Assembly: GCF_019923725.1 (NCBI RefSeq)
Contig: NZ_JAHXRI010000001.1
Coordinates: 248,001 to 312,000, forward strand
Source of the DNA: Zwartia hollandica
Lineage (GTDB): Bacteria; Pseudomonadota; Gammaproteobacteria; Burkholderiales; Burkholderiaceae_B
Length of the DNA stretch: 64,000 nt
Direction: 5' to 3'
Positions 8,138-35,926 of this stretch are shown one piece after another. Position 1 is the stretch's first letter, and each line of letters starts with the position of its first letter. The notes under the pieces were generated by a model. The model did not search any database. It worked only from the letters and a program-made list of their open reading frames with translations, and was not told the DNA's origin. Both the position numbers and the translations under genes were made by a program.

Positions 8138-8168
8138 AATCAGCCCAAACGGGCTGATTTTTGTTTTT
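8138..8168 (+). terminator. Intrinsic terminator of the catabolic cassette, inside the rph 3' end
   Basis: Perfect 9-bp stem AATCAGCCC / GGGCTGATT (8138-8146 and 8151-8159) with loop AAAC, then a T-rich tail (TTTGTTTTT, 8160-8168). It serves the plus-strand cassette. The stop codon of rph on the other strand lies in the first arm, so the hairpin and the last rph codons share bases. On the minus strand no T-run follows the stem. Confidence 0.88.
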
Positions 8169-8895
8169 GTGCCAAGAGAGCAATGCCGTCTTCTGCCAAC
8201 GCTAACAGGTGGTTTAGTTCAGTGCGATCAAAGGTGTGTCCTTCTGCAGTGCCCTGCACCTCGACGTAACGCCCCACGCCGGTCATCACGATATTCATGT
8301 CTGCATCGCAGCCAGAATCTTCTGGATAATCAAGATCCAGCACTGGCTGTCCGCCCACCATACCGACCGAAACCGCTGCGACCGAATCGATGAGAGGATT
8401 TTTTGTCAGCAATCCCTGCTTGAGCAACCCGTCCACTGCGTCCGCAACAGCGACCCATGCACCGGTAATACTCGCGCAGCGCGTGCCGCCATCCGCTTGC
8501 AACACATCACAATCAATCTGTATCGTACGCTCACCGAGCGCTGTCATGTCCATCACCGCACGCAAACTCCGACCAATCAGACGCTGAATTTCTTGGGTCC
8601 GACCAGACTGCTTTCCCTTGGCCGCCTCTCTGTCGGAGCGGGTATGGGTCGAGCGCGGCAACATACCATATTCAGCTGTCACCCAGCCTTGGCCCTGGCC
8701 TTTTAGAAATGGAGGCACTTTTTCGAGTACGCTTGCTGTGCACAGCACTTGTGTATTGCCCATACAAATCAGAACAGACCCCTCTGCGTAGCGCGTAAAT
8801 GCCCGCTGCATGGAAACAGTACGAAGCTCGTTGGCGGCACGGCCTGACGGACGCGGTTGAACGGCGGCGGTTTGATGAGTATTGATAGTTGACAC
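8140..8895 (-). CDS. rph: Ribonuclease PH
   Basis: Phosphate-dependent 3'-5' exoribonuclease that trims tRNA 3' ends. It has 251 residues, slightly above the usual 238-245. Family segments are visible: [52 protein letters not shown] and [13 protein letters not shown]. The start codon is GTG at 8895 with a weak GAGAG upstream. The start of ggt lies 36 bases away on the other strand. In many Burkholderiales rph, rdgB and hemW are adjacent; here an accessory cassette separates them. Confidence 0.96.
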
Positions 8896-8931: not shown

Positions 8932-10842
8932 ATGAATCACAGCAGCCAATCCCTAGGTTTACAGCGACACAGTATACGCAGCGCAGCGCAGCGTGTCCTG
9001 CTGAACGCCTTCTGTCTGTGGGTGGTCGCTGCGACCTTCACCCCACTTGCCGCACAGCCTCGCTCCTCAGCAACGACCCTGCCGGGATCGGCAGTCCCTG
9101 GGCCAGCAAACAACGAGACGGCGGTGGTGCGATATGACGGATCCTTCGAAATATTCCATCCCGTTGTCTCGACCGGCGGCATGGTGGCCAGCGAGCACCG
9201 ACTTGCCAGTCAGATCGGTGCTCGGATTCTGGAGCAAGGAGGCAATGCCACAGACGCGGCAGTCGCAATGGGGTTTGCGCTGGCGGTCGTCCTACCCAAT
9301 GCCGGCAATCTTGGTGGCGGCGGCTTCATGCTGGTCCACGAGGCTACACATGCAAGAACAGTCGCCCTCGACTTTCGTGAAACGGCTCCTGCCAGTGCTC
9401 GCCCAAATATTTTTCTTGATGCAGAGGGCCAAGTCATTGCGGGTAAGTCGACCCGCACACCCTTTGCGGTTGGCGTGCCTGGATCAGTCGCCGGCCTTGC
9501 CCAGGCCGCACGCGACTACGGCAGTCTTCCCCTCGCTCAACTTGTGGCCCCGGCAATTGAATTAGCCGAGAGCGGCTTTATTGTCAGTGCAGTGCTCGAA
9601 GAGCAATTTAAAACTCACCGGGCACATCTGATTCGCTGGCCGGGCACGCGAGAAGTCTTTTTTAAGCGCAAGCAGCACGCATCTGCTTGTGCGCTTGAGC
9701 ACTGCCCTCATGATGCACTCGAGACCTATAGCCGCGGCGATCGGCTGATTCAAAAGGACTTAGCAAATACCTTGCGTCTCATCGCGCAAGCTGGCGCGAA
9801 CGGGTTTTATACCGGTCCCGTTGCTCAGCAGATTGTGGCCGAGTTAAGCAACGGGGTGGATACCTCACCCATGACGATGCAAGATCTAAGCAACTACCGA
9901 GTCGCACTGCGGCAGCCCGTTCAAGGTACCTACCGCGGGTATCAGATACTTTCGATGCCTGCCCCAAGCTCGGGCGGCATACACTTGGTTCAAATGCTGA
10001 ACATTCTCGAACGCTACCGGCTCGCAGACTTCGGTGCCGGAAGTGCACAAACGATTCATTTGATCGCCGAGAGCGCCAGACTGGCCTATGCCGATCGAGC
10101 AGAATTCCTTGGGGATCCAGACTTTGTCAAGGTTCCACAACGGGGGCTAAGCGCCAAGGGTTACGCCGACCAAATAGCGTCCGGCATTCATTTAAGCAAA
10201 GTGACGCCAAGCAATCTCATACGTCCCGGGCAGCCCCAGCCGTTCGAGAGCGATCAAACGACCCATTTCTCGGTGATGGATCGTATGGGCAATGTCGTGA
10301 GTTGCACTTACACACTCAATTTAAACTTCGGATCAGGAATCGTCGCACGGGGTACCGGTGTACTTCTAAACAATGAAATGGACGACTTTGTTGCAAAGCC
10401 AGGTGTCCCCAACGCCTTCGGACTTCTAGGCGGTGATGCGAACGCGGTCGAACCAGGCAAGCGACCCCTCAGCTCAATGACTCCCGTCATTGTCATTAAG
10501 GATGGAAGCCCCTGGTTAGCGACAGGTTCGCCAGGTGGCTCGAGAATCATCACAACCGTCTTACAAAACCTCATCAATGTTATCGATTTCAATATGAATA
10601 TCGCCCAAGCGATCTCAATGCCTCGTGCGCACCATCAATGGATGCCCGACTATCTGAGAATCGAACGAGGCATTAGCCCTGACACCATTGGACTACTTAA
10701 GCAAATGGGCCATGACGTCAGGATAATGCCGACGATGGGCCGTGCACAAACCGTACAGCACGCACACGGTCGCTTTTTTGGCGCCTCTGACCCTCGCAAT
10801 CCTGATGGCGCAGCAATAGGCATAGAGAGAAGAAATGATTAA
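8932..10842 (+). CDS. ggt: Gamma-glutamyltransferase, exported
   Basis: Self-cleaving gamma-glutamyltransferase/glutathione hydrolase of about 636 residues. An N-terminal signal segment (hydrophobic core LNAFCLWVVAATFTPLAAQ) predicts periplasmic location. The processing site is in QTTHFSVMD; the first Thr (about residue 443) becomes the N-terminal nucleophile of the small subunit. Substrate-binding segments NLGGGGFM and KRPLSSMTPVIV are present. The frame opens earlier with a GTG at 8899, but the ATG at 8932 gives a compact signal peptide. The last 8 bases overlap yicC. It releases glutamate and cysteinylglycine from glutathione-type peptides. Confidence 0.94.
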   Translation: MNHSSQSLGLQRHSIRSAAQRVLLNAFCLWVVAATFTPLAAQPRSSATTLPGSAVPGPANNETAVVRYDGSFEIFHPVVSTGGMVASEHRLASQIGARILEQGGNATDAAVAMGFALAVVLPNAGNLGGGGFMLVHEATHARTVALDFRETAPASARPNIFLDAEGQVIAGKSTRTPFAVGVPGSVAGLAQAARDYGSLPLAQLVAPAIELAESGFIVSAVLEEQFKTHRAHLIRWPGTREVFFKRKQHASACALEHCPHDALETYSRGDRLIQKDLANTLRLIAQAGANGFYTGPVAQQIVAELSNGVDTSPMTMQDLSNYRVALRQPVQGTYRGYQILSMPAPSSGGIHLVQMLNILERYRLADFGAGSAQTIHLIAESARLAYADRAEFLGDPDFVKVPQRGLSAKGYADQIASGIHLSKVTPSNLIRPGQPQPFESDQTTHFSVMDRMGNVVSCTYTLNLNFGSGIVARGTGVLLNNEMDDFVAKPGVPNAFGLLGGDANAVEPGKRPLSSMTPVIVIKDGSPWLATGSPGGSRIITTVLQNLINVIDFNMNIAQAISMPRAHHQWMPDYLRIERGISPDTIGLLKQMGHDVRIMPTMGRAQTVQHAHGRFFGASDPRNPDGAAIGIERRND

Positions 10843-25354: not shown

Positions 25355-25901
25355 GCAGCCCTCACCTTCAGGCCTTCGTTGGCGTAACACCCCGCCTCCT
25401 GCACTTACCATCTGCCAGAAAAACTGGCTCATGCGTCCTGGCGCCCTCACTGCTGCCCTACGACAGTTAGGTGCACTAGACTTGCGCGTGCTCTCAGAGA
25501 AAGTCCGTCCACTGACTAGGGAGGATAGCAGTCTAATTGGCTTAGCTGTGGGTCAACCGGCTTGGGTCCGGGAGGTTGCGATGCGCCTAGGCGGTCAAGA
25601 CTGTGTCGTAGCGCGCAGCCTGACACCCTTGGGTCCATCGCACGGCGTCTGGCAAGGGATCCGACGATTGCGCACGCGCCCTTTAGCAGACATGCTCTAC
25701 CAGGATGCCTCAATTCATCGCTCAGATTTTGAAGTCGCACGTTTAGGTCGCCGTAGTGCATTGTTTCAGACAGTACAGCGCAACCTAACAAAGCCCGTGA
25801 CGCATACTTTGCTCGCCCGCCGTTCAGTATTTTGGCGCTCTGGTCAACCCTTGCTCGTGGCCGAGTGCTTTCTACCTGAGTTTTGGCGGCAAGCTCAATA
25901 G
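25353..25901 (+). CDS. ubiC: Chorismate lyase UbiC
   Basis: A 182-residue UbiC-family protein converting chorismate to 4-hydroxybenzoate plus pyruvate, the first committed step of ubiquinone synthesis. Family features include [16 protein letters not shown] near the start and a central REVAMRL, followed by [10 protein letters not shown]. The end ([20 protein letters not shown]) is characteristic, with the conserved Glu in AECF. The first ATG overlaps the divergent rluF ATG within CATG (25352-25355). The last 7 bases overlap the convergent DsrE gene. Confidence 0.9.
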
Positions 25902-26269
25902 ACTAGAACCTTACACGTCGGATCGAGTGCGAGCTCAAGCATACTGACCATTCCGATTATCTCCGTTGCATCAGGAATCATGTCAGCGGGGGCGAGAGCA
26001 CGATCACGCATCGCCGTTGAGCAAAGCGCGACACGCACACCGCTACGTAATGCATCATCGATATAAGCAGAGAGCGCCCGACCGAGCGGCGCAACTGGAG
26101 TGTGCCTCGCGTGATTGCTCTGTTCAAAAAGCTCAACGCTTGATCCTAGGGCGTGTATGCAAACCTCAACATCCATCGCCGCGGCACTCGCCGCGATCAT
26201 GAAAGGGGTCGCACTATGCTGAGCGTCGTGCGTGCCACTTTGCCAGAGCTGAATGACCAACCTCATCAT
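25895..26269 (-). CDS. DsrE-family protein, last gene of the Sec/formate locus
   Basis: A 124-residue DsrE/TusD-like protein. Its predicted beta-alpha fold (MRLVIQLWQ, VEVCIHALGSSVELF, GVRVALCSTAMRDRAL, ATEIIGMVSMLEL) is typical. Cys83 in ALCSTAMRDRAL falls where TusD/DsrE carry the sulfur-accepting Cys. Cys37 and Cys120 are also present. The ATG overlaps the stop of the lipoyl-carrier gene (ATGA), so the two are translationally coupled. DsrE proteins act in sulfur relay; a DsrE-TusA fusion, YedF, is linked to selenium metabolism. A sulfur or selenium transfer role here is inference. Confidence 0.85.
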   Translation of the reverse strand: MMRLVIQLWQSGTHDAQHSATPFMIAASAAAMDVEVCIHALGSSVELFEQSNHARHTPVAPLGRALSAYIDDALRSGVRVALCSTAMRDRALAPADMIPDATEIIGMVSMLELALDPTCKVLVY

Positions 26270-26727
26270 GCGCCCTGATCAGGTTTGAAGTCAGCAAACG
26301 AAGTCATTTGATGCAAATCCATCAACTCGGTCGCTCGTACAGACACCCCCGTGCCTTTTAACAAACAGGTATGCGCTGCCGCCACATCCGACACCGCAAG
26401 TCGTGACAACCAGTTCATGTACGGGCTGCGGCTGATCTTCATAGGAGTTGCTGTCAAGGGCTCATTAATCTCTACCACCTCACAGGCAAAAGGCACGCGA
26501 ACCGACAACACCGTTTTCGCCACCTCGACAAGAGCGAAAGCCTTGCCCGCTTCAATCTCACGACCCACTGGGCGCGGATTGAACATGTACAGCTCCCCGA
26601 CTAGCGCTAGACCAAAGGACGTGAGCCCAGCTTCAAATTGCCCAGCGCCCAAGTCTCGAAACCAGACATTGAGCTCTTGGTCGTAACTTAAATCGTCTGG
26701 AAACTCGCACCCTCGAACTTCAGCCAC
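26266..26727 (-). CDS. GcvH-like lipoyl-carrier protein next to tRNA-Sec
   Basis: A 153-residue protein of the glycine cleavage H-protein fold. The lipoylation segment LVEVAKTVLSVRVP aligns with the H-protein motif LVESVKAASDIYSP and keeps the modifiable Lys (71 from the GTG start chosen here). CEVVEIN follows as in GcvH. No gcvT or gcvP is nearby, so glycine cleavage is unlikely. Lipoate-binding proteins of this type serve sulfur oxidation (LbpA of the sHdr pathway). It lies just after selC and is coupled to the DsrE gene. The start is GTG at 26727 (GGAG five bases upstream); GTG at 26733 is an alternative. Confidence 0.85.
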   Translation of the reverse strand: MAEVRGCEFPDDLSYDQELNVWFRDLGAGQFEAGLTSFGLALVGELYMFNPRPVGREIEAGKAFALVEVAKTVLSVRVPFACEVVEINEPLTATPMKISRSPYMNWLSRLAVSDVAAAHTCLLKGTGVSVRATELMDLHQMTSFADFKPDQGA

Positions 26728-26752
26728 ACACACACTCCGTCAAGCAAAGAAT

Positions 26753-26849
26753 TGGCGGAAGAGTATGGGAGTCGAACCCACCAAGGACTGTACGACAGCC
26801 ATTCCCGGATTTGAAGTCCGGACGTCCCACCCGGGAGCGACACTCTTCC
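26753..26849 (-). tRNA. selC: tRNA-Sec (anticodon TCA)
   Basis: A 97-base selenocysteine tRNA including the encoded CCA. The acceptor is 8 bp (GGAAGAGT at 26849-26842 with ACTCTTCC at 26764-26757), followed by discriminator G and CCA. The anticodon stem CCGGA/TCCGG encloses CTTCAAA, with TCA at 26814-26812. A long variable arm and a T-loop (TTCGACT) are present. The extended acceptor, long variable arm and UGA-reading anticodon identify it as selC. It lies directly downstream of selB on the same strand. Confidence 0.97.
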
Positions 26850-26881: not shown

Positions 26882-28837
26882 TTAAGGCTGTACGTCTTGC
26901 TGCGCGCCACGAAAAAGCGCTGCATTTCTAAGTATTCTATGATCCTTTTCTACCGCGCGACCGGTTCGACCTAAGCTCACTAAACGGCGTGTCAGCCCAA
27001 CGCGATCGAAGGCCTCGAGAATCTGAATGGCTCGCTTGCGTCCGATTCCAAGCTTGTCACGGAAATTGATCACGCTCACGAAGCCCTGTTCGCCTACGGT
27101 TTCTCGAATCATATCCGCCATTCTAGACATCGTTGCGTCAGGATAGAACAGATCCTTCACCAGCTGGGTCAGTGCTGAGGTACGAGCCTGCTTTTTAAAC
27201 AGCAATCGGACCTCCTCCTCGCTCGCACTCACCATCAGAGCCACGTCGCGCACCCAGGGAGGATCAAACTCTCCATCCAAAAGCTTAGGAAGCGCGCGCT
27301 CCCACAAGATACGCTCGGGACCGGAAAGCTCGACTTTATGTCCAACGGCGTGGACGAAGCTTCCAGTCAGGGCAAATGTCCCCGCACTAATCTGCGCCGT
27401 CAACCAAACCTTAAAAACAGAAGCTTGCAGGTCCGGCACAGCCATCCGCCTCAAACGCTCAAACGCAAGCCCTGGCTCGTCCGGATCAGATATATGAAAA
27501 GCATCAAGGCAAGCGCGCACACGTTCGGTCAGCCCCGACTGCGCCTCCATACCCAAAATTAACTGATGCGCACCATCCTGCAACTGTAGAGCAAGCCTCG
27601 GCTCAAGCGCACGCAAGAGCAGCTCGGCACTGCGGTTCATCGCAGCCGCCCAATGCGTGAGATCCAGAGGGCCACGAGCGCGGTCCATCAGACCGAGCAA
27701 AGCAGTGACTGGATCAGCTTGCTGCAACGTAGCCAACACATCGAAGCGTTCTGGCTTTTTCCGCCCACGCACAGGTGGTGCGATATCCATGACTTGCGCG
27801 CCCGCCAACGTATGGCGTGCACTCGCGTCACGCAACACGAGCCGATCCTGCCAACAGAGCGCAAGAGGCCGATCCAATACAATTTGTGCCCAGGCCTCTT
27901 GTCCAGCGCCGATCTGTCCACGATCCAATAAAATCAACCGTGCCGAAACTTGTTGGCAACCATGATGCAACAACACGAGTTCACCATCCTTGATCACACG
28001 CTCTGCATCGTGGGGAACAGACAGTAGGCAATCTACACGCACAGTCTGTAGGTCGAGCTCTGGCCCAACAAGCCAGTCACCACGCGTGACTTGCTCAACA
28101 TCCACACCCGACAATACGATGCCGCAACGCTCGCCTACGGTTGCCTGCTGTGCCGACTGATTCTGCGCATGAATGGAGCGTACCCTCGCCTCAAGCCCGG
28201 CATGCGCAAGTCGTACCCGATCCCCCACAGCAATACGGCCGGCGATCACTGCACCCGTCACGGCAACACCCATCCCCTTCACAACAAAAACGCGGTCAAT
28301 CGCGAGACGGAAATAGCTAGGAGCTTCGGAAGGCTGGCTCAACCTCAACGCAAACAGCGCTGCTTGTAACGCCGCAACACCAGCTTGGGTACGAACGGAG
28401 ACCGGGTAAGCCTCAACTTCACCAAAGCGCGTCAGCCCAACATGGTCAAGCACTTCGCGTGTAACGGCTTGCACACGCTGAGCGTCGACCAAATCTATTT
28501 TTGTGATGGCAACCGACAGTTGGGGGACACCAAGCAAGTCAAGTATGCGTAAATGCTCACGCGTCTGCGGCATCAAGCCGTCATCGGCCGCAACAACCAG
28601 CAACCCATGATCCATCCCGATCGCACCGGCTGCCATCGTATGCACAAATTTTTCATGACCCGGTACATCCACAAAGCCTACGACCGAGCCCGACGCAGTC
28701 GGTGCGTAGGCGAAGCCGAGGTCAATGGTGATGCCGCGCGCCTTTTCTTCAGGCAGCCGGTCTGCGTTGACACCCGTCAAGGCCTCTACCAGCGAGGTCT
28801 TGCCGTGATCGATATGACCCGCCGTACCGATAATCAT
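26882..28837 (-). CDS. selB: Selenocysteine-specific elongation factor SelB
   Basis: A 651-residue GTPase that brings Sec-tRNA to UGA codons by binding the SECIS hairpin. The G domain opens at residue 1: MIIGTAGHIDHGKTSL (P-loop GHIDHGKT), with DVPGHEKF and TKID. EF-Tu-like domains II and III follow, and the C-terminal winged helices (final one near 580-650, FRDKLGIGRKRAIQILE) contact the SECIS. Its ATG overlaps the selA stop (ATGA). tRNA-Sec follows 33 bases after its stop. Confidence 0.97.
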   Translation of the reverse strand: MIIGTAGHIDHGKTSLVEALTGVNADRLPEEKARGITIDLGFAYAPTASGSVVGFVDVPGHEKFVHTMAAGAIGMDHGLLVVAADDGLMPQTREHLRILDLLGVPQLSVAITKIDLVDAQRVQAVTREVLDHVGLTRFGEVEAYPVSVRTQAGVAALQAALFALRLSQPSEAPSYFRLAIDRVFVVKGMGVAVTGAVIAGRIAVGDRVRLAHAGLEARVRSIHAQNQSAQQATVGERCGIVLSGVDVEQVTRGDWLVGPELDLQTVRVDCLLSVPHDAERVIKDGELVLLHHGCQQVSARLILLDRGQIGAGQEAWAQIVLDRPLALCWQDRLVLRDASARHTLAGAQVMDIAPPVRGRKKPERFDVLATLQQADPVTALLGLMDRARGPLDLTHWAAAMNRSAELLLRALEPRLALQLQDGAHQLILGMEAQSGLTERVRACLDAFHISDPDEPGLAFERLRRMAVPDLQASVFKVWLTAQISAGTFALTGSFVHAVGHKVELSGPERILWERALPKLLDGEFDPPWVRDVALMVSASEEEVRLLFKKQARTSALTQLVKDLFYPDATMSRMADMIRETVGEQGFVSVINFRDKLGIGRKRAIQILEAFDRVGLTRRLVSLGRTGRAVEKDHRILRNAALFRGAQQDVQP

Positions 28838-30285
28838 TTTGTGGTGGCCAACCGCTGTGCGGCAGCCAGCATCGTATCGCGCAACACCGTGACTTTATCT
28901 TCGGTGAGGCAGCGCAAATCTAACAACAAAGTCTTATCGGACAAACGCCCGATCACCGCAATGTCTGAACCTCTCAAGAGCCGCTCCAAGCGAACGACCC
29001 TTTTCTCATAGGAACGATCAACAGCTGAGATCGCCAACGCAACGGAGGGCAGCCGCTCGACAGGCAAAGAACCCGAACCAATTTGAGACTTTACCGCCTG
29101 CGCGGCAATGCTTAACCCGCAGCCGGCGAGCGCCTCCTCAAGAGCAGGAATCAGACCATCCGCTTGTGCTTGCATCGACGACGCCGTGCGCGTCAATAAC
29201 TGAATGACTTTCACCCGCTCGGGTAAGGTCGCAGGATTTCGGTACATCCGCAACACCGACTCCAACGCAGCCAGGGTGACTTTTCCGACACGCAAGACAC
29301 GTTTAAGCGGATTTTTTTTGATGCGTTGGATAAGATCCTTACGTCCGACCAAAATGCCCGCCTGCGGACCACCTAACAACTTATCGCAACTAAAGGTCAC
29401 CAAATCGGCGCCGTCTGCAATCGCCTCGGCCGGGGTAGGTTCTTTTGGCAACCCAAACTGTGTCAGATCGACCAACGTACCTGAACCGAGATCCACCACA
29501 AATGGCACCTCTCGCTCGTGCGCAATCTTGGCTAACTCATTCTCAGGCACTTCTGCAGTGAAGCCTTGAACGACATAGTTACTCGTATGCACCTTCATCA
29601 CAAGCGCGGTCTTCGGGCCGATCGCCTCAGCGAAATCACGAGCATGCGTGCGGTTCGTCGTACCGACTTCAACGAGCCGTGCCCCTGCGCGCTTCATGAT
29701 GTCGGGAATACGAAAAGCGCCTCCAATCTCGATCAACTCACCGCGCGAAACAATGGTCTCCTTGCGATTGGATAACGCATGGAGCAAAAGAAAAACAGCT
29801 GCTGCATTATTGTTCACGACGGTTGCGGCCTCTGCACCCGTTAGCTCGCAGAGCAGTTCCTCAACCAGCTCATCGCGGTCACCGCGTTTGCCTTCACCGA
29901 GGTCATACTCGAGCGCGCACGGCTCTGCGGCAGCGCTCGCCATCGCAGCGATCACCTCATCGGGCATGACCGCCCGCCCTAAGTTCGTGTGTAGTACTGT
30001 CCCGGTGAGGTTAATCACACGACGCAGATTGGGACGGGCACGAGCGACCAAGCGTGCATCAATCAGGGCATGCAATGATTGATCAGAAGGTACAGCATCG
30101 AGATCGTTAGAACTGATTTTTTTGCGGATTGCGTCTAAGACCAGACGAATACAACGCAATAACTCATCGCGCCCATACTGCGTAACCCAGGCGGTGGCTG
30201 GGTCAGACAACAGCAGCTTATCGACAGAAGGAAGCTGGGCGAGCAACACTGACACGGGCGCACGCGCCACGGACTGAGGTTTCAT
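28834..30285 (-). CDS. selA: L-seryl-tRNA(Sec) selenium transferase SelA
   Basis: A 483-residue PLP-dependent enzyme that converts Ser-tRNA-Sec to Sec-tRNA-Sec using selenophosphate. The PLP-lysine motif is SCDKLLGGPQAG near residue 300; INLTGTVLHTNLGRA near 90 and VNNNAAAVFLLLHAL near 160 are family hallmarks. A homodecamer in bacteria. It is coupled to selB by a 4-base overlap and lies 26 bases after fdhE. The selenophosphate donor enzyme SelD is not encoded in the window. Confidence 0.97.
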   Translation of the reverse strand: MKPQSVARAPVSVLLAQLPSVDKLLLSDPATAWVTQYGRDELLRCIRLVLDAIRKKISSNDLDAVPSDQSLHALIDARLVARARPNLRRVINLTGTVLHTNLGRAVMPDEVIAAMASAAAEPCALEYDLGEGKRGDRDELVEELLCELTGAEAATVVNNNAAAVFLLLHALSNRKETIVSRGELIEIGGAFRIPDIMKRAGARLVEVGTTNRTHARDFAEAIGPKTALVMKVHTSNYVVQGFTAEVPENELAKIAHEREVPFVVDLGSGTLVDLTQFGLPKEPTPAEAIADGADLVTFSCDKLLGGPQAGILVGRKDLIQRIKKNPLKRVLRVGKVTLAALESVLRMYRNPATLPERVKVIQLLTRTASSMQAQADGLIPALEEALAGCGLSIAAQAVKSQIGSGSLPVERLPSVALAISAVDRSYEKRVVRLERLLRGSDIAVIGRLSDKTLLLDLRCLTEDKVTVLRDTMLAAAQRLATTK

Positions 30286-30311: not shown

Positions 30312-31253
30312 CTAGTCACTCTTTGACGGCTCATCCTGACCCGTCACAAAAAACAAATTTCTACCCGTTCGCTGATAACCCTCAGAGGCTAAAGCAAGAT
30401 CGAGGTTTAACGTGGCCAAGTCGTCAGCACTCGGATCCATCAACGGCTCTTTCGATTGAAACATGATTTTGATGTAACCACCACAATCATCGCAGCACTC
30501 GCCTTGCACAAGACTGTCAGGCGTTTCACCCAAACGCGACACTTCTTTCGGTGTGTCACAATTTGTACAACGCGCACGCGGTGCATACCACTCCGACGCA
30601 CACAGCGAACAAACTAGATAGCGATGACCATCACGATCACCCACGCGCAATACACTGGTGACGGGGTGCGAGCCACAAACCGGGCACAACCCATTCTCGC
30701 CTTTATGCAAGTGCGTAAAGCTCGACACCAGCTTGGCCTCGCAGGTCCAGAGCAGTTGTAACGCAGCGCCGATAAACGGTGCCAAGTCAGCCGCCACCAA
30801 TTGTTCTTCTGCCGCCAGCAAGGCTTGAGCCTGCTTATGTTGCTCAGAAAGGGGAAGCGCGACCAACCGATCGAGCGCTGCGCGTACACCGTCCGGCAAG
30901 CCCTGCTTGCGCAGTGATGCTTCGAGCGCCGCCAAAACCACGGACCAGCGCGCGTCAGGCTTCCAGGTAGAAATTGATAAGGGTGGTACCGAATGCTTAA
31001 AGGATTCTTGGACAACCGTCTCATCTAGCGCGACCGTTTCAACCGAACCCAACGCATCCACCTGCGCCTGCGCGAGCTGTGCGCAAAATCCCAACCAAGC
31101 AGAGTCCGTGTGCGTCGCCGCCAACTGAGCTAGCCGAGTCGCGCGATCTTGGAAAGCCTGCCGAGCGTCCATCACCACCAATAGTGGCGTATCGTCTTCA
31201 GGCATCCCCTGGATTTCACCAGGTTGAATCAATTTAATCGCAGATACAGTCAT
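30312..31253 (-). CDS. fdhE: Formate dehydrogenase accessory protein FdhE
   Basis: A 313-residue FdhE-family protein needed for activity of respiratory formate dehydrogenases. The C-terminal half holds four CxxC pairs: CPVCGS, CSLCAS, CTNCDT and CCDDCGG, rubredoxin-like metal knots. Cytoplasmic. It follows the membrane subunit gene after an 86-base gap with a hairpin, and precedes selA. Its presence with the Sec genes indicates that the locus is a self-contained maturation unit. Confidence 0.95.
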   Translation of the reverse strand: MTVSAIKLIQPGEIQGMPEDDTPLLVVMDARQAFQDRATRLAQLAATHTDSAWLGFCAQLAQAQVDALGSVETVALDETVVQESFKHSVPPLSISTWKPDARWSVVLAALEASLRKQGLPDGVRAALDRLVALPLSEQHKQAQALLAAEEQLVAADLAPFIGAALQLLWTCEAKLVSSFTHLHKGENGLCPVCGSHPVTSVLRVGDRDGHRYLVCSLCASEWYAPRARCTNCDTPKEVSRLGETPDSLVQGECCDDCGGYIKIMFQSKEPLMDPSADDLATLNLDLALASEGYQRTGRNLFFVTGQDEPSKSD

Positions 31254-31339: not shown

Positions 31340-31966
31340 TTACTTACCGCCTGTAACTTCCTTGAACCAGCCTGGATGGTGCTTGCGCGCCCATGCTCGG
31401 CTCACGATACCCGTGCGCATGGCGCCAATCGTACCCTGAACCCAAATTGCGGCATACACGTGCACGATGATGGTCAGGATCAATACCCAAGCCGAAAACG
31501 CATGCACAAGCGCAGCAACACGATTCACATCCACGGGAACGTAATGTGAAAAGTATGGGCGCCAAAAGGCAAAGCCCGACACGGTAAGCAAGAGCATCGA
31601 AACAACCATTACCCAGAACGCGAGCTTCTGGCCGCCGTTATAGCGACCAACCTCTGGCAGTTTCTCGTGATGCCCATTGAGCACATCGCCAATCTGGCCA
31701 AGCCACTTGCGATCGTTCGCATTCAGGACATTGTGATGCCAGAACTTGAACATGATGCCCACAAACAAGACGAACATCGCCACACCGATGAATGGGTGCA
31801 GGATGCGTGCCCAAGAGCCGCCGCCAAACAGACCAACCAAGAAATACATGGAAGGATGAAAGAGCGCGAGGCCCGACAAAGCAGCCAGAACAAATAGCAG
31901 TGCGACGATCCAGTGGTTCGCACGATCCGAACCACTGTAACGCACCAAACCATTTTCGTTAGACAT
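31340..31966 (-). CDS. fdoI: Formate dehydrogenase, cytochrome b556 (gamma) subunit
   Basis: A 208-residue integral membrane di-heme cytochrome b of the FdnI/FdoI family. Four transmembrane segments are visible (WIVALLFVLAALSGLALFH; FIGVAMFVLFVGIMFKFWH; FWVMVVSMLLLTVSGFAFW; VHAFSAWVLILTIIVHVYAA) with several His near the segment ends as heme ligands. It passes electrons from the beta subunit to quinone. The last 60 bases hold KHHPGWFKEV, typical of the family C-terminus. It follows the beta subunit after 11 bases. Confidence 0.94.
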   Translation of the reverse strand: MSNENGLVRYSGSDRANHWIVALLFVLAALSGLALFHPSMYFLVGLFGGGSWARILHPFIGVAMFVLFVGIMFKFWHHNVLNANDRKWLGQIGDVLNGHHEKLPEVGRYNGGQKLAFWVMVVSMLLLTVSGFAFWRPYFSHYVPVDVNRVAALVHAFSAWVLILTIIVHVYAAIWVQGTIGAMRTGIVSRAWARKHHPGWFKEVTGGK

Positions 31967-31977
31967 GATGGTTCTCC

Positions 31978-32853
31978 TTAAGCCTTAGGATCATGGTCGT
32001 CTTCAACCTTGTCCGGACCTTTGATGGCGTAGTGAATCACGCCAGCAAATACGGTCGCAGCCATGGTCAGCAGAGCGATTGGTTTCATGATTCCCTTCCA
32101 AATACTGACCGTCGGCGAGATCGTTGGATTCGCCGGCAAGCCGCTGTATTCAGTGGGACGATCGCCATGTGGCAACACGTACATCACATGTGTTCCACCA
32201 ACACCTTGTGGGTTGTATAGCGCTGCTTTGCTAAAGCCACGGCTGTTCAGATCCTTGATGCGCTCGTTTGCGTATTGAATCCGCTCTTCCTTCGGGCCAA
32301 ACGTCAGCGCCTGGGTTGGGCAGGACTTCACGCAAGCTGGCTCTTGACCAACCGAGACGCGATCCGAACACAAGGTGCACTTTGTCGCCTTGTTTGTGAC
32401 TTCGGAAATCTTGGGGACATCAAACGGACAACCGGAGACACAATAGCCGCAGCCGATACATTTGTCAGAGTTGAAATCCACAATACCATTGTCAAGTTTG
32501 ACAATCGCACCGGGACTTGGGCAAGCCTTCAAACAGCCTGGATCCTCGCAGTGCATACAACCGTCTTTACGGATCAACCAGTCCAAACCACCCGTGGCGG
32601 TTTCGACCTCGTTGAACTTCATGACAGTCCATGCTGCTGGACCTAACTCTGCTGGGTTGTCGTATGAGCCGTCATTGATACCGATTTCAGGACGGGTTTC
32701 ATTCCACTCCATACAGGCAACCTGACAGGCCTTACAGCCGATACAGGTCGATATGTCGATCAGCTTGGCCACATGCGTGGTTTTAGCCGCAGCAGCGGGG
32801 GGGGTCATAGTCGTGGCGGACTGAGCAACGACGTGTAGTGCTTGAGTAGCCAT
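31978..32853 (-). CDS. fdoH: Formate dehydrogenase, iron-sulfur (beta) subunit
   Basis: A 291-residue four-cluster ferredoxin-type subunit. The Cys groups are CIGCKACQVACMEWN, CMHCEDPGCLKACPSPGA, CIGCGYCVSGCPFDVP and CTLCSDRVSVGQEPACVKSC, matching four [4Fe-4S] clusters. A C-terminal hydrophobic segment (IALLTMAATVFAGVIHYAI, about 258-276) anchors it in the membrane. It carries electrons from the Sec-containing alpha subunit to cytochrome b. It lies 10 bases downstream of the alpha gene. Confidence 0.96.
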   Translation of the reverse strand: MATQALHVVAQSATTMTPPAAAAKTTHVAKLIDISTCIGCKACQVACMEWNETRPEIGINDGSYDNPAELGPAAWTVMKFNEVETATGGLDWLIRKDGCMHCEDPGCLKACPSPGAIVKLDNGIVDFNSDKCIGCGYCVSGCPFDVPKISEVTNKATKCTLCSDRVSVGQEPACVKSCPTQALTFGPKEERIQYANERIKDLNSRGFSKAALYNPQGVGGTHVMYVLPHGDRPTEYSGLPANPTISPTVSIWKGIMKPIALLTMAATVFAGVIHYAIKGPDKVEDDHDPKA

Positions 32854-32863
32854 GTCGTTCTCC

Positions 32864-35800
32864 TTAAGCCTTCACGATATTGACAAGGAACGCCTTAAAT
32901 TCTGGCGTCTGTGAGTTTGCATCACCAACAAACGGTGTCAAGGTATTGGCCAACTGTGCTTGCTTGGTTTGGCCCTTGAAGCCGTAGTGAATTGGAATAC
33001 CAACGTGATAAACCGTCTGTCCATCCACTTTCATACCCTTGAAGCGTTTGGTCACGACCGCTTTCGCATTAACGAAACCACGCGCTGAGGTCACTTTTAC
33101 CTTGTCACCGTTTGCGATACCTTTCTCTTTTGCAAGAGCTTCGCTGATCTCAACAAACATCTCAGGCTGGACAATGGCATTCAACTTTGAATGCTTAGAC
33201 CAGTAGTGATAGTGTTCCACCAAGCGATAGGTCGTAGCGGCGTACGGATAGTCCTTGGGTGAACCAAACACTTCCATATCCCCTTTGTACACACGCGCAG
33301 CCGGATTCGACTTGGCTTTCGTGTTGTTGGGATGCATGGGGTTACGTGCCAACGGTGTTTCAAACGGCTCGTAGTGCTCAGGGAAAGGACCCTCCGCCAT
33401 CTGTGGCGCAAACAAGCGAGCAACACCCTCAGGGTTCATGATGAACGGCATCACGTTCTCTTCAGGTTTTGCATTGGGACGCATATCGGGGATGTCGTTA
33501 CCACCCCAACGATCGCCCAACCACTTCAGCACGGTACGTTTCTCGTCCCAAGGCTTACCACTGAGATCGGTTGAAGCGCGGTTATAAAGAATGCGACGGT
33601 TAGCCGGCCAGGCAAAGCCCCAGTTGGCGCTCTGACCCAAACCTTGATCCGAGGTCTCCCGTGGATCACGACGCGCTGTTAGGTTACCGGCCTGGCTCCA
33701 GCAGCCAGAGTAAATCCAGTTACCGCAGGCTGTCGTGCCATTGTCCTGCAGCAGCGCAAAGCCCGGAACCTGCTGACCCGCTGCAACAAGCACCTTACCA
33801 GAAGCATCCTTAATGTCTGCCAAGGCTTTACCGCTAATCTCACGCGTGAGCTCGGCAGCATCTGGGTTGTTGGGGTTAGCGTAGGGCCATGTCAAGTTCA
33901 CGATGGCGTCAGGGAATGCACCGCCCTCTTTCTTGTACATATCACGCACTTTATTAAAGAGCGTTGCCATGATCTCGCAGTCGGACTTCGACTCACCCGG
34001 ACCATCCGCAGCTTTCCAGTGCCACTGAATCACACGACCTGAGTTCGTGAAGGTACCGTCTTGTTCAGCAAAACACGTCGCTGGCAAACGGAACACTTCT
34101 GTCTGAATCTTGGACGAATCAACATCGTTGAATTCGCCATAGTTCTTCCAGAACTCGCTCGTCTCGGTTTGTAGAGGATCAATCACCACCAAGTACTTCA
34201 GCTTGGCCAGTGCAGCGCCAATCTTGTTCTTGTTAGCAACCGCGGCCAAGGGGTTAAAGCCCGAGGAAATGAATCCTTCCATCTTGCCTTGGTGCATTCT
34301 TTCAAAAATAGCCAGAATGTCGTAGGCACCGTCCCGCTTAGGCAGGTAATCAAAGGCAAAATCCGTCTCTGCCGTTGCCTTGTCGCCGTACCAGGCCTTC
34401 ATCAAGCTGTTAAACCACTTGGGGAAGTTCTGCGGGAAGTTCATCTGATTAGGCCGAAGCGCCTTGGGCGTGCGCGCATTACGGTAATCCGCGTACGTCT
34501 TGTCCGCTTCGAGCGGCGCGGACAGGTAGCCTGGCAACACTTCGGAGTACAAGCACATATCAGTAATGCCTTGTACGTTCGCATGCCCACGCAAGGCATT
34601 CACACCGCCGCCGGCCATACCCATGTTGCCTAGGAGCAACTGGATCATAGCCATCGTACGAATGTTTTCCGAGCCGATCGAGTGTTGTGTCCAACCCAGC
34701 GCATAACAAATGGTCATGGTCTTGTCAGGCGCGGAGGTTGCAGCAACCATTTCGCACACTTTCAGGAACTGGTCCTTAGGTGTACCGGTGATGCTGCTCA
34801 CGAGGTCAGGTGTGTAACGCGAGAAATGCTTCTTCATCAGTTGGAAGACGCAATTTGGATCTTGCAAAGTGGTGTCCACTTTGGCGAATCCGTCTTCCAT
34901 TTGATAGGTCCAAGTCCCCTTCGCATAGCTGCGCTTGGCTTCGTCGTAACCCGAGAAAATGCCCTCCTTGAATCCGAACTCCGGATTAATCAAGAAAGAT
35001 GCGTTCGTGTAATTCAACACGTAGTCTTTGTGGATCTTGTTGTTCTCAAGCAGGTAATGAATCAGCCCGCCCAAGAATGCAATATCCGCACCAACACGAA
35101 TCGGCGCGTAGTAGTCAGCGACTGCTGCTGAACGCGTGAAACGCGGATCCACCACAACCAGCTTGGCTGCGCGTTTAGCTTTAGCCTGAATCACCCACTT
35201 GAAACCACAAGGGTGCGCCTCGGCTGCATTGCCGCCCATAATTAACACTACATCGGCGTTCTTGATGTCAACCCAATGGTTGGTCATCGCACCGCGCCCA
35301 AACGTCGGGGCCAGACTGGCCACCGTCGGAGCGTGTCAGATACGCGCTTGTGTGTCGAGTGCTACAACGCCCATCGAACGCAAAATCTTGGCAGTCATAT
35401 AGCCAGATTCGTTGTTCGACGCAGAACTCACCAACATACCAAAGGTGTTCCAACGGTTCACCGTTAGGCCATCAGCATTCTTGGCGACGAAATTCTTATC
35501 GCGATCAGCCTTCATTCGCTTGGCAATGCGTGTCAGCGCCTCTTCCCAAGAAATACGCTTGAACTCTTTGCTGCCTGGCTCACGCACTTCAGGAAATTGC
35601 AAACGGTCAGGACTGTCGATCATGTCGAGCAAGCCAGCGCCCTTGGGACACAAGGTGCCCTTATTCACTGGATTATCTGGATCGCCTTCAACGTGCATCA
35701 CTTTCTGTTTGCCCTGCGCGTCTTTCGCGCTGTAGAGCAATACACCACAGCTCACGGAACAGTAAGGACAGGTGCTACGCGTCTCTGTTGTCTTTTCAAG

Positions 35801-35926
35801 TTTGTTCGGTTTCTTAAACACCGGATCAGCAGCATTCGCAAGACCCATGACGGTCATGCTGCTAGTTCCGAGTCCTGCACCGGTCACCTGAAAAAACTGA
35901 CGCCGGGTCAGTTTAATTTGGGACAT
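32864..35926 (-). CDS. fdoG: Formate dehydrogenase alpha subunit, selenocysteine-containing
   Basis: Molybdenum/tungsten bis-MGD formate dehydrogenase catalytic subunit of 1020 residues when the in-frame TGA at 35338-35336 is read as selenocysteine 197. The context ARI-Sec-HAPTVASLAPTFGRG matches FdnG/FdoG. A twin-arginine signal (RRQFFQVTGAGLGTSSM) predicts Tat export; the [4Fe-4S] motif CPYCSVSCGVL follows near 53. The ribosome site is AGGAG eight bases before the ATG. The two open halves are contiguous in frame, so this is neither a frameshift nor a pseudogene. It heads the beta, gamma, fdhE, selA, selB, selC series. Confidence 0.97.
35302..35338 (-). promoter_or_regulatory. SECIS element for the UGA of formate dehydrogenase
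   Basis: Counting from U1 of UGA (35338), the hairpin pairs C14-G16 with C31-G33 and G18-C21 with G27-C30, enclosing the loop AGUCU. U17 (35322) is left as a single bulge, and G23-U24 (35316-35315) lie in the loop. These are the exact positions known to be required for SelB binding in E. coli fdhF and fdnG. A lower stem continues with G12-C35 and C11-G36. Confidence 0.92.

Follow-up and report, generated by a model that had tools for sequence, protein, structure and literature searches.

The locus examined here raises the question of why a lipoyl-carrier-like protein and a DsrE-family protein are encoded at the very end of a gene run for selenocysteine (Sec) incorporation and formate dehydrogenase (FDH). 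The window (64,000 nucleotides of Zwartia hollandica, positions 248,001 to 312,000 of contig NZ_JAHXRI010000001.1, here C1) belongs to a genome of 3.22 Mb that is 99.7% complete. A sequence-only reading of it had suggested that a lipoyl-bound sulfur or selenium carrier feeds either selenophosphate synthesis or the sulfuration of FDH. Genomes are numbered with G and loci with L below, and the window's genome is G000.

The run lies on the minus strand in the order fdhG-fdhH-fdhI-fdhE-selA-selB-selC-GcvH-like-dsrE. The gene fdhG (32864..35926) encodes the catalytic subunit of a Sec-containing FDH-N and has a single in-frame TGA for Sec at 35336-35338 (context QARI*HAPTVASL); as the query of the FDH-N alpha search it matches itself at 100%, with an open frame of 823 after the TGA. 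It is followed by fdhH for the iron–sulfur subunit (31978..32853; TIGR01582, 420 bits, cut-off 334.7), fdhI for the cytochrome b subunit (31340..31966; TIGR01583, 187 bits, cut-off 115.85) and fdhE for the FDH accessory protein (30312..31253; TIGR01562, 204 bits, cut-off 187.65). Between fdhI and fdhE a terminator-like hairpin, recognised by consensus match only, is located on the minus strand at 31307-31279, and the stretch from fdhE to dsrE may therefore be a sub-unit of transcription. Next come selA (28834..30285; TIGR00474, 577 bits) and selB (26882..28837; TIGR00475, 428 bits), which overlap by 4 nt, and closely behind them selC, the tRNA-Sec with anticodon tca (26753..26849; ARAGORN). 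The open reading frame (ORF) of the GcvH-like, or LbpA-like, carrier protein (26266..26733; assigned by Pfam GCV_H, AlphaFold model and tree) starts about 20 nt past selC, and judged from the congeners its start may be a GTG a few codons further downstream. Its stop shares the 4 nt ATGA with the start of dsrE (25895..26269; assigned by Pfam DsrE and AlphaFold model), onto the end of which ubiC converges. These coordinates and the overlap confirm the two coupled genes behind tRNA-Sec on the same strand that the sequence-only reading had described. Its statement that glycine cleavage genes are missing nearby also holds, as none was recognised among the window ORFs of 18-36 kb; the canonical GcvH of this genome is encoded on contig C22.

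The GcvH-like protein reaches 64.7 bits for Pfam GCV_H (cut-off 22.2) but only 46.8 bits for the NCBIfam GcvH equivalog, far under its cut-off of 115.85. Its AlphaFold model (mean pLDDT 90.9) has the H-protein 1onl as best PDB match, with 28% identity and a TM-score of 0.90 by target. Fold and acceptor Lys are thus shared with canonical GcvH, whereas the tree puts the two apart: the 14 canonical GcvH rows form their own side, and the GcvH-like rows of the pair join the LbpA rows against them (100/99). Of the 33 rows from betaproteobacterial pair loci, 29 cluster together next to LbpA, with support (89/82) that falls short of full; the other four (L096, L084, L086 and L099) have long branches and join lower, a placement flagged as possibly false by the program. 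That the pair rows are sister to LbpA rather than nested within it has similarly incomplete support (89/82 and 90/93). The tree holds 84 of 156 distinct rows, including randomly drawn subsets of the LbpA (34 of 90) and GcvH (14 of 30) rows, and omits four pair loci found later. By sequence, the protein is not a canonical GcvH but a relative of LbpA, which is the lipoyl protein in sulfur oxidation by the sHdr system. A canonical role in glycine cleavage was rejected on the basis of the tree, the family score under cut-off and the separate GcvH of the genome.

Lipoylation of an acceptor Lys is determined by a Glu at position -3, a Gly at -16 and a Gly at +11. The Lys of LVEVAKT, already recognised as retained, is K73 and is invariant across all 17 relatives in the alignment, as are E70 at position -3 and the Gly at -16; position +11 holds Cys or Ala instead of Gly in 13 of the 17 rows. 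The window's genome encodes one protein of the LplA/LipB family, of LipB size (235 aa), on C22, and no match to the lipoate ligase that accompanies the pair in Alphaproteobacteria (see below); no lipoate ligase of their own was seen in the betaproteobacterial pair loci either. Modification of K73 would therefore have to come from the LipB-type protein. This is uncertain, since LbpA is not lipoylated by the machinery of E. coli or B. subtilis according to the accessible part of the LbpA study (PMC10332631), and it is the weakest link of the reading proposed here.

The DsrE protein (124 aa) matches Pfam PF02635 with 40.9 bits (cut-off 22.7), the sole domain over cut-off, and has no NCBIfam match; its AlphaFold model (mean pLDDT 94.4) resembles PDB entries 3mc3, 3pnx and DsrEFH 2hy5. 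The Cys of LCSTAM, to which the sequence-only reading had pointed, is C83 and is identical in 67 of 67 DsrE rows. From its family score and this Cys of sulfur-binding type, the protein is assigned to the DsrE/DsrF/TusD family. Synonymous sites are near saturation in comparison with four congeners, while dN is 0.09-0.21 for the GcvH-like gene and 0.15-0.45 for dsrE, so that both genes are under purifying selection. In the DsrE tree the betaproteobacterial pair rows form one side (93/80) and the alphaproteobacterial rows are nested within DsrE proteins of LbpA loci. The two trees together bear out the suggested kinship with the DsrE and lipoate-binding proteins of sHdr systems.

The pair is linked to Sec and FDH loci well outside the window. 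Of 32 genomes from the window's genus, 18 contain a close copy (identity at least 52%), and all 12 loci that were fetched contain selB (whole or in part), selC, the GcvH-like gene and dsrE. The same gene run occurs in Polynucleobacter MWH-Loch1C5 and in a Polynucleobacter MAG. A sample of 300 genomes of the order contained 85 with SelB over cut-off, and the selB stretches of all 85 were inspected, some of which stop at contig ends. The pair was found in 16 genomes from 10 families, always with both genes together (16/16); 69 of the 85 Sec-decoding genomes, and many sel-fdh loci, lack it. In 14 genomes it adjoins sel genes (G000, G264, G181, G081, G218, G248, G083, G250, G030, G187, G147, G064, G184 and G108), and in two more (G263 and G169) it follows fdhE, with selA and selB on another contig. 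The gene order varies between GcvH-DsrE, DsrE-GcvH and a split around selA-selC in L097, where the GcvH-like gene is ahead of selA and dsrE lies behind selC on the opposite strand. The linkage to sel and fdh loci is far beyond chance, and the survey for co-occurrence with sel genes and fdhE that the sequence-only reading had called for thus yields a real association, conserved across many genera.

Several neighbouring features were seen in these loci. A PepSY-associated transmembrane (PepSY_TM) gene is located directly 5' of the GcvH-like gene in L056 (10226-11485), L058 (8655-9872) and L130 (76-1284) and by selB in L098 (4504-5748), identified by Pfam in L058 and by similarity or by eye in the others. 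L094 (7212-8579; Pfam) and L099 (4494-5879) encode a flavoprotein similar to sulfide dehydrogenase (FCSD) between selA and selB. In L144 of Polynucleobacter sp. GWA2_45_21 a GcvH-like match extends over two frames (10001-10263), perhaps a decaying copy. Loci L109, L114, L117, L121 and L130 are on MAG contigs near the Sheuella-type genus, L130 farther from it, and their Bordetella parapertussis titles look wrong.

Pair loci also occur in Alphaproteobacteria. L141 (a Pseudorhodoplanes MAG) and L143 (a Xanthobacteraceae MAG) encode fdhGHI-fdhE-selA-selB-selC, two ORFs without assigned function, a lipoate ligase (in L141 matching PF21948 with 116 bits), dsrE, the GcvH-like protein and then selD or an NDH-SelD fusion; L137 contains the ligase-dsrE-GcvH-NDH/SelD portion. 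Compared with LbpA loci of the same order, the ligases are 31-41% and the DsrE proteins 58-65% identical. The three alphaproteobacterial GcvH-like rows group with LbpA (90/93 and 84/91), and they are therefore probably the result of a second, separate recruitment, as judged from the trees. Among 199 Hyphomicrobiales genomes, 13 have close GcvH-like matches and 11 have SelB over cut-off. The motifs read are ESGKW except in G331, most matches have sLpl and DsrE in the same stretch, and G331 alone has a Sec-linked pair; these matches are therefore mostly sHdr proteins. The two small ORFs behind selC (L141:7699-8163 and 8150-8551; L143:8025-8492 and 8476-8871) have no Pfam match where this was tested, in L141, and similar ORFs follow SelB or selC in L311, L313, L315 and L317, all without the pair. 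The NDH-like oxidoreductase by sel loci, which either forms a fusion with SelD or is its neighbour, is found at L141:10309-12684 (TIGR03169 and TIGR00476, both over cut-off), L137:1928-4285, L315, L316 and L309.

Compared with the LbpA-DsrE3-sLpl proteins of sHdr systems in Hyphomicrobium denitrificans and others, the pair has the same GcvH fold with acceptor Lys, the same DsrE with one invariant Cys and, in the alphaproteobacterial loci, a lipoate ligase that belongs to the same family. In contrast to the sHdr carriers it is encoded in sel/fdh loci, with no hdr-like gene seen beside it, and its acceptor motif is E[VLAMSC]xK[TSIV] (ESAKW in Alphaproteobacteria) instead of the ESGKW of sHdr LbpA. 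No hdr-like gene was recognised among the window ORFs of 18-36 kb by Pfam and NCBIfam searches of selected genes; tblastn likewise returned none, with a query set that held no Hdr subunits. Two control loci do have genes of hdr type (CCG, Fer4 and FAD) beside LbpA, namely L226 (G226), together with ligase and radical SAM genes, and L186 (G481). The pair looks like the carrier half of an sHdr system, minus its oxidising complex, attached to a Sec-containing FDH-N. YedF/FdhU and YedE/FdhT offer another parallel, since there too a DsrE-type protein is tied to selenium and FDH, as covered by the accessible part of a selenium-gene survey (PMC5322559). In YedF, however, a TusA domain is fused to DsrE and the motifs CPxP and CGxC are present, whereas the window DsrE has neither TusA nor these motifs and has a lipoyl-type partner instead. 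An identity with YedF was rejected, as no TusA/SirA domain is present in the 124 aa and only DsrE was matched.

FDH-N alpha was found in 68 of the 300 genomes (E<=1e-150), among them 15 of the 16 pair genomes; in the 16th, G030, fdhE-I-H reaches the contig end. In each of the 15 the frame is as long as expected for the Sec type, and the TGA was read directly in nine, including the window, the other loci being cut or unfetched. No pair is known from the 12 genomes whose FDH-N is exclusively of the Cys type, and all of them encode FdhD. By hand counts, 41 sel loci have fdh genes within the stretch that was fetched and 44 do not; the pair occurs in 12 of the former and 2 of the latter, and in these two (G083 and G187) FDH-N is encoded further up the same contig.

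FdhD is the sulfurtransferase for FDHs, and fdhD is absent from some FDH-bearing organisms, as stated in the consulted part of a 2023 review (PMC10609526). The window's genome has no match to FdhD (PF02634), which is present in 185 of the 300 genomes of the order sample. Of two culturable carriers, Polynucleobacter sp. MWH-Loch1C5 likewise shows no FdhD match, and Sheuella amnicola NBD-18 (G300) has FdhD. Among 18 FDH-N genomes without FdhD, 5 have the pair, 12 have an ESGKW LbpA and one, G231, has neither; among 50 with FdhD, 10 have the pair and 40 neither, the FDH loci having been read in 20 of these 40. The pair or an ESGKW LbpA is therefore present in 17/18 versus 10/50 genomes (Fisher p=2.8e-8), and the pair alone in 5/6 versus 10/50 (p=0.004), both raw values that ignore kinship. 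An FdhG tree of 42 of the 68 genomes, some with partial sequences, gave no more than four independent contrasts with support, of which about 2 are in favour, 0.1 against and 2 undecided, and the association is thus not significant after phylogeny. The 12 LbpA genomes without FdhD, in five of which DsrE was seen beside LbpA, belong to lineages of sulfur oxidisers, where the loss of FdhD may have had a different cause. Simple replacement of FdhD by the pair is weakened as an explanation, since 10 of 15 fdhG-bearing pair genomes keep FdhD (5, including G000, lack it) and G231 has FDH-N without FdhD and without a pair at its fdh and sel loci, both of which were read. The Sec-type FDH-N locus of that genome (L321, G231:C3:165000-179000) has a thioredoxin-like ORF upstream of fdhG. 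None of the 10 pair genomes with FdhD encodes it at a distance of 12 kb or less from fdhG, versus 10 of 20 non-pair genomes among the rows listed, and in two pair genomes it is flanked by moaA-like and mobA-like ORFs, as identified by eye.

We propose that the pair is a small sulfane-carrier relay devoted to maturing the Sec-containing FDH-N of its run. Sulfane sulfur picked up by Cys83 of DsrE would be handed to the GcvH-like protein, whose Lys73 would bear a swinging dithiol arm (presumably lipoyl) and which would offer the sulfur for insertion at the FDH-N active site. The likeliest step would be sulfuration of the Mo-bisPGD cofactor, the sulfur-transfer job of FdhD in E. coli. With FdhD, which is also a Moco chaperone, the pair would share this job only, as the folds are unrelated and both coexist in most of the fdhG-bearing pair genomes (10/15). 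Such a path from DsrE over a dithiol arm to the active site of FDH agrees with the components present and with the pattern of FdhD, although we infer lipoylation, sulfur binding, target and direction of transfer. That the pair is some sulfur or selenium relay for Sec-FDH-N or Sec maturation is probable, and for the specific reading that it matures Sec-FDH-N by sulfurating the molybdenum cofactor we estimate a probability of roughly 0.4. A broader version, in which lipoyl-type carrier and DsrE form an FdhD-independent route of Mo-bisPGD sulfuration and the sHdr LbpA/DsrE serves FDH-N in sulfur oxidisers without FdhD, is tentative and somewhat doubtful.

Between the two destinations named by the sequence-only reading, the data lean to FDH because of the Sec-type FDH-N wherever fdhG was found, the two fdhE-linked pairs and the window's genome without FdhD; delivery of selenium is still compatible with them. 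For Sec-tRNA synthesis, DsrE and the lipoyl arm would then supply SelD or SelA with selenium in the form of -S-SeH or of a selenotrisulfide, with selenide shielded from iron and oxygen. This matches the sel linkage (14/16 genomes) nearly as well as sulfuration does and agrees with the lack of a pair in genomes with Cys-type FDH-N only, and the consulted part of the survey (PMC5322559) connects the DsrE-containing YedF with the use of selenium and, in Campylobacter, with the biogenesis of Se-dependent FDH. The three alphaproteobacterial pair loci adjoin selD or the NDH-SelD fusion, but SelD is also encoded beside sel genes in the pair-less L253, L282, L286, L291, L309, L315 and L316; adjacency to SelD is therefore not specific to the pair and was discarded as proof of a selenium role. 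Moreover, the pair is commoner at sel loci with fdh genes, stands with fdhE away from selA/selB in G263 and G169, and is dispensed with by most Sec-decoding genomes (69/85). For a Sec-FDH-N sulfane relay we thus regard cofactor sulfuration as more likely and selenium delivery as unlikely.

Both remaining explanations do without a donation of sulfur to FDH. The dihydrolipoyl arm could be a thiol-redox helper of oxygen-exposed bacteria, for the reduction or repair either of FDH-N at its oxidised Sec/sulfido site or of a selenium–sulfide intermediate. Lipoyl dithiol chemistry with a redox-type DsrE partner would suit this role, as would the PepSY_TM genes in L056, L058, L098 and L130 and the FCSD-like flavoprotein with a thioredoxin-like protein in L094/L099. 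The single invariant Cys of DsrE and the kinship with sHdr carriers nevertheless favour sulfane carriage. FDH-N is periplasmic, and neither pair protein shows a signal peptide (by eye), so that repair after export would be hard; altogether we consider this role very improbable. A leftover or general function in sulfur metabolism (sulfane handling or sensing), co-transcribed and with no specific role for FDH or Sec, is improbable as well. It would be in keeping with the many pair-less sel-fdh loci and with relatives that work in sHdr sulfur oxidation, as described in the accessible parts of two studies (PMC6067878, PMC12423496), but it does not readily explain an association kept in 10 families despite altered gene order, a probably separate recruitment in Alphaproteobacteria and strong purifying selection.

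In the open-licence literature we found no publication that joins a lipoyl or GcvH-like protein with Sec genes or FDH maturation. The accessible part of the selenium-gene survey names YedE, YedF, a LysR regulator and DUF3343 and contains no GcvH or lipoyl term (PMC5322559); such terms are also absent from the corresponding part of a 2026 review (PMC13188914), and selenium and formate dehydrogenase are absent as terms from that of the eLife LbpA paper. How FDHs are sulfurated in organisms without FdhD is open, according to the part consulted of the 2023 review (PMC10609526), and the pair provides concrete candidates located inside an FDH-N gene run. If the sulfuration reading is true, an FdhD-independent route would account for active FDH-N in bacteria without FdhD, lipoyl-type carriers would gain a role beyond 2-oxoacid dehydrogenases, glycine cleavage and sHdr sulfur oxidation, and sulfane trafficking would be connected to the assembly of a molybdo-selenoenzyme. 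If selenium is carried instead, the pair would be a new protein-bound path for selenium donation.
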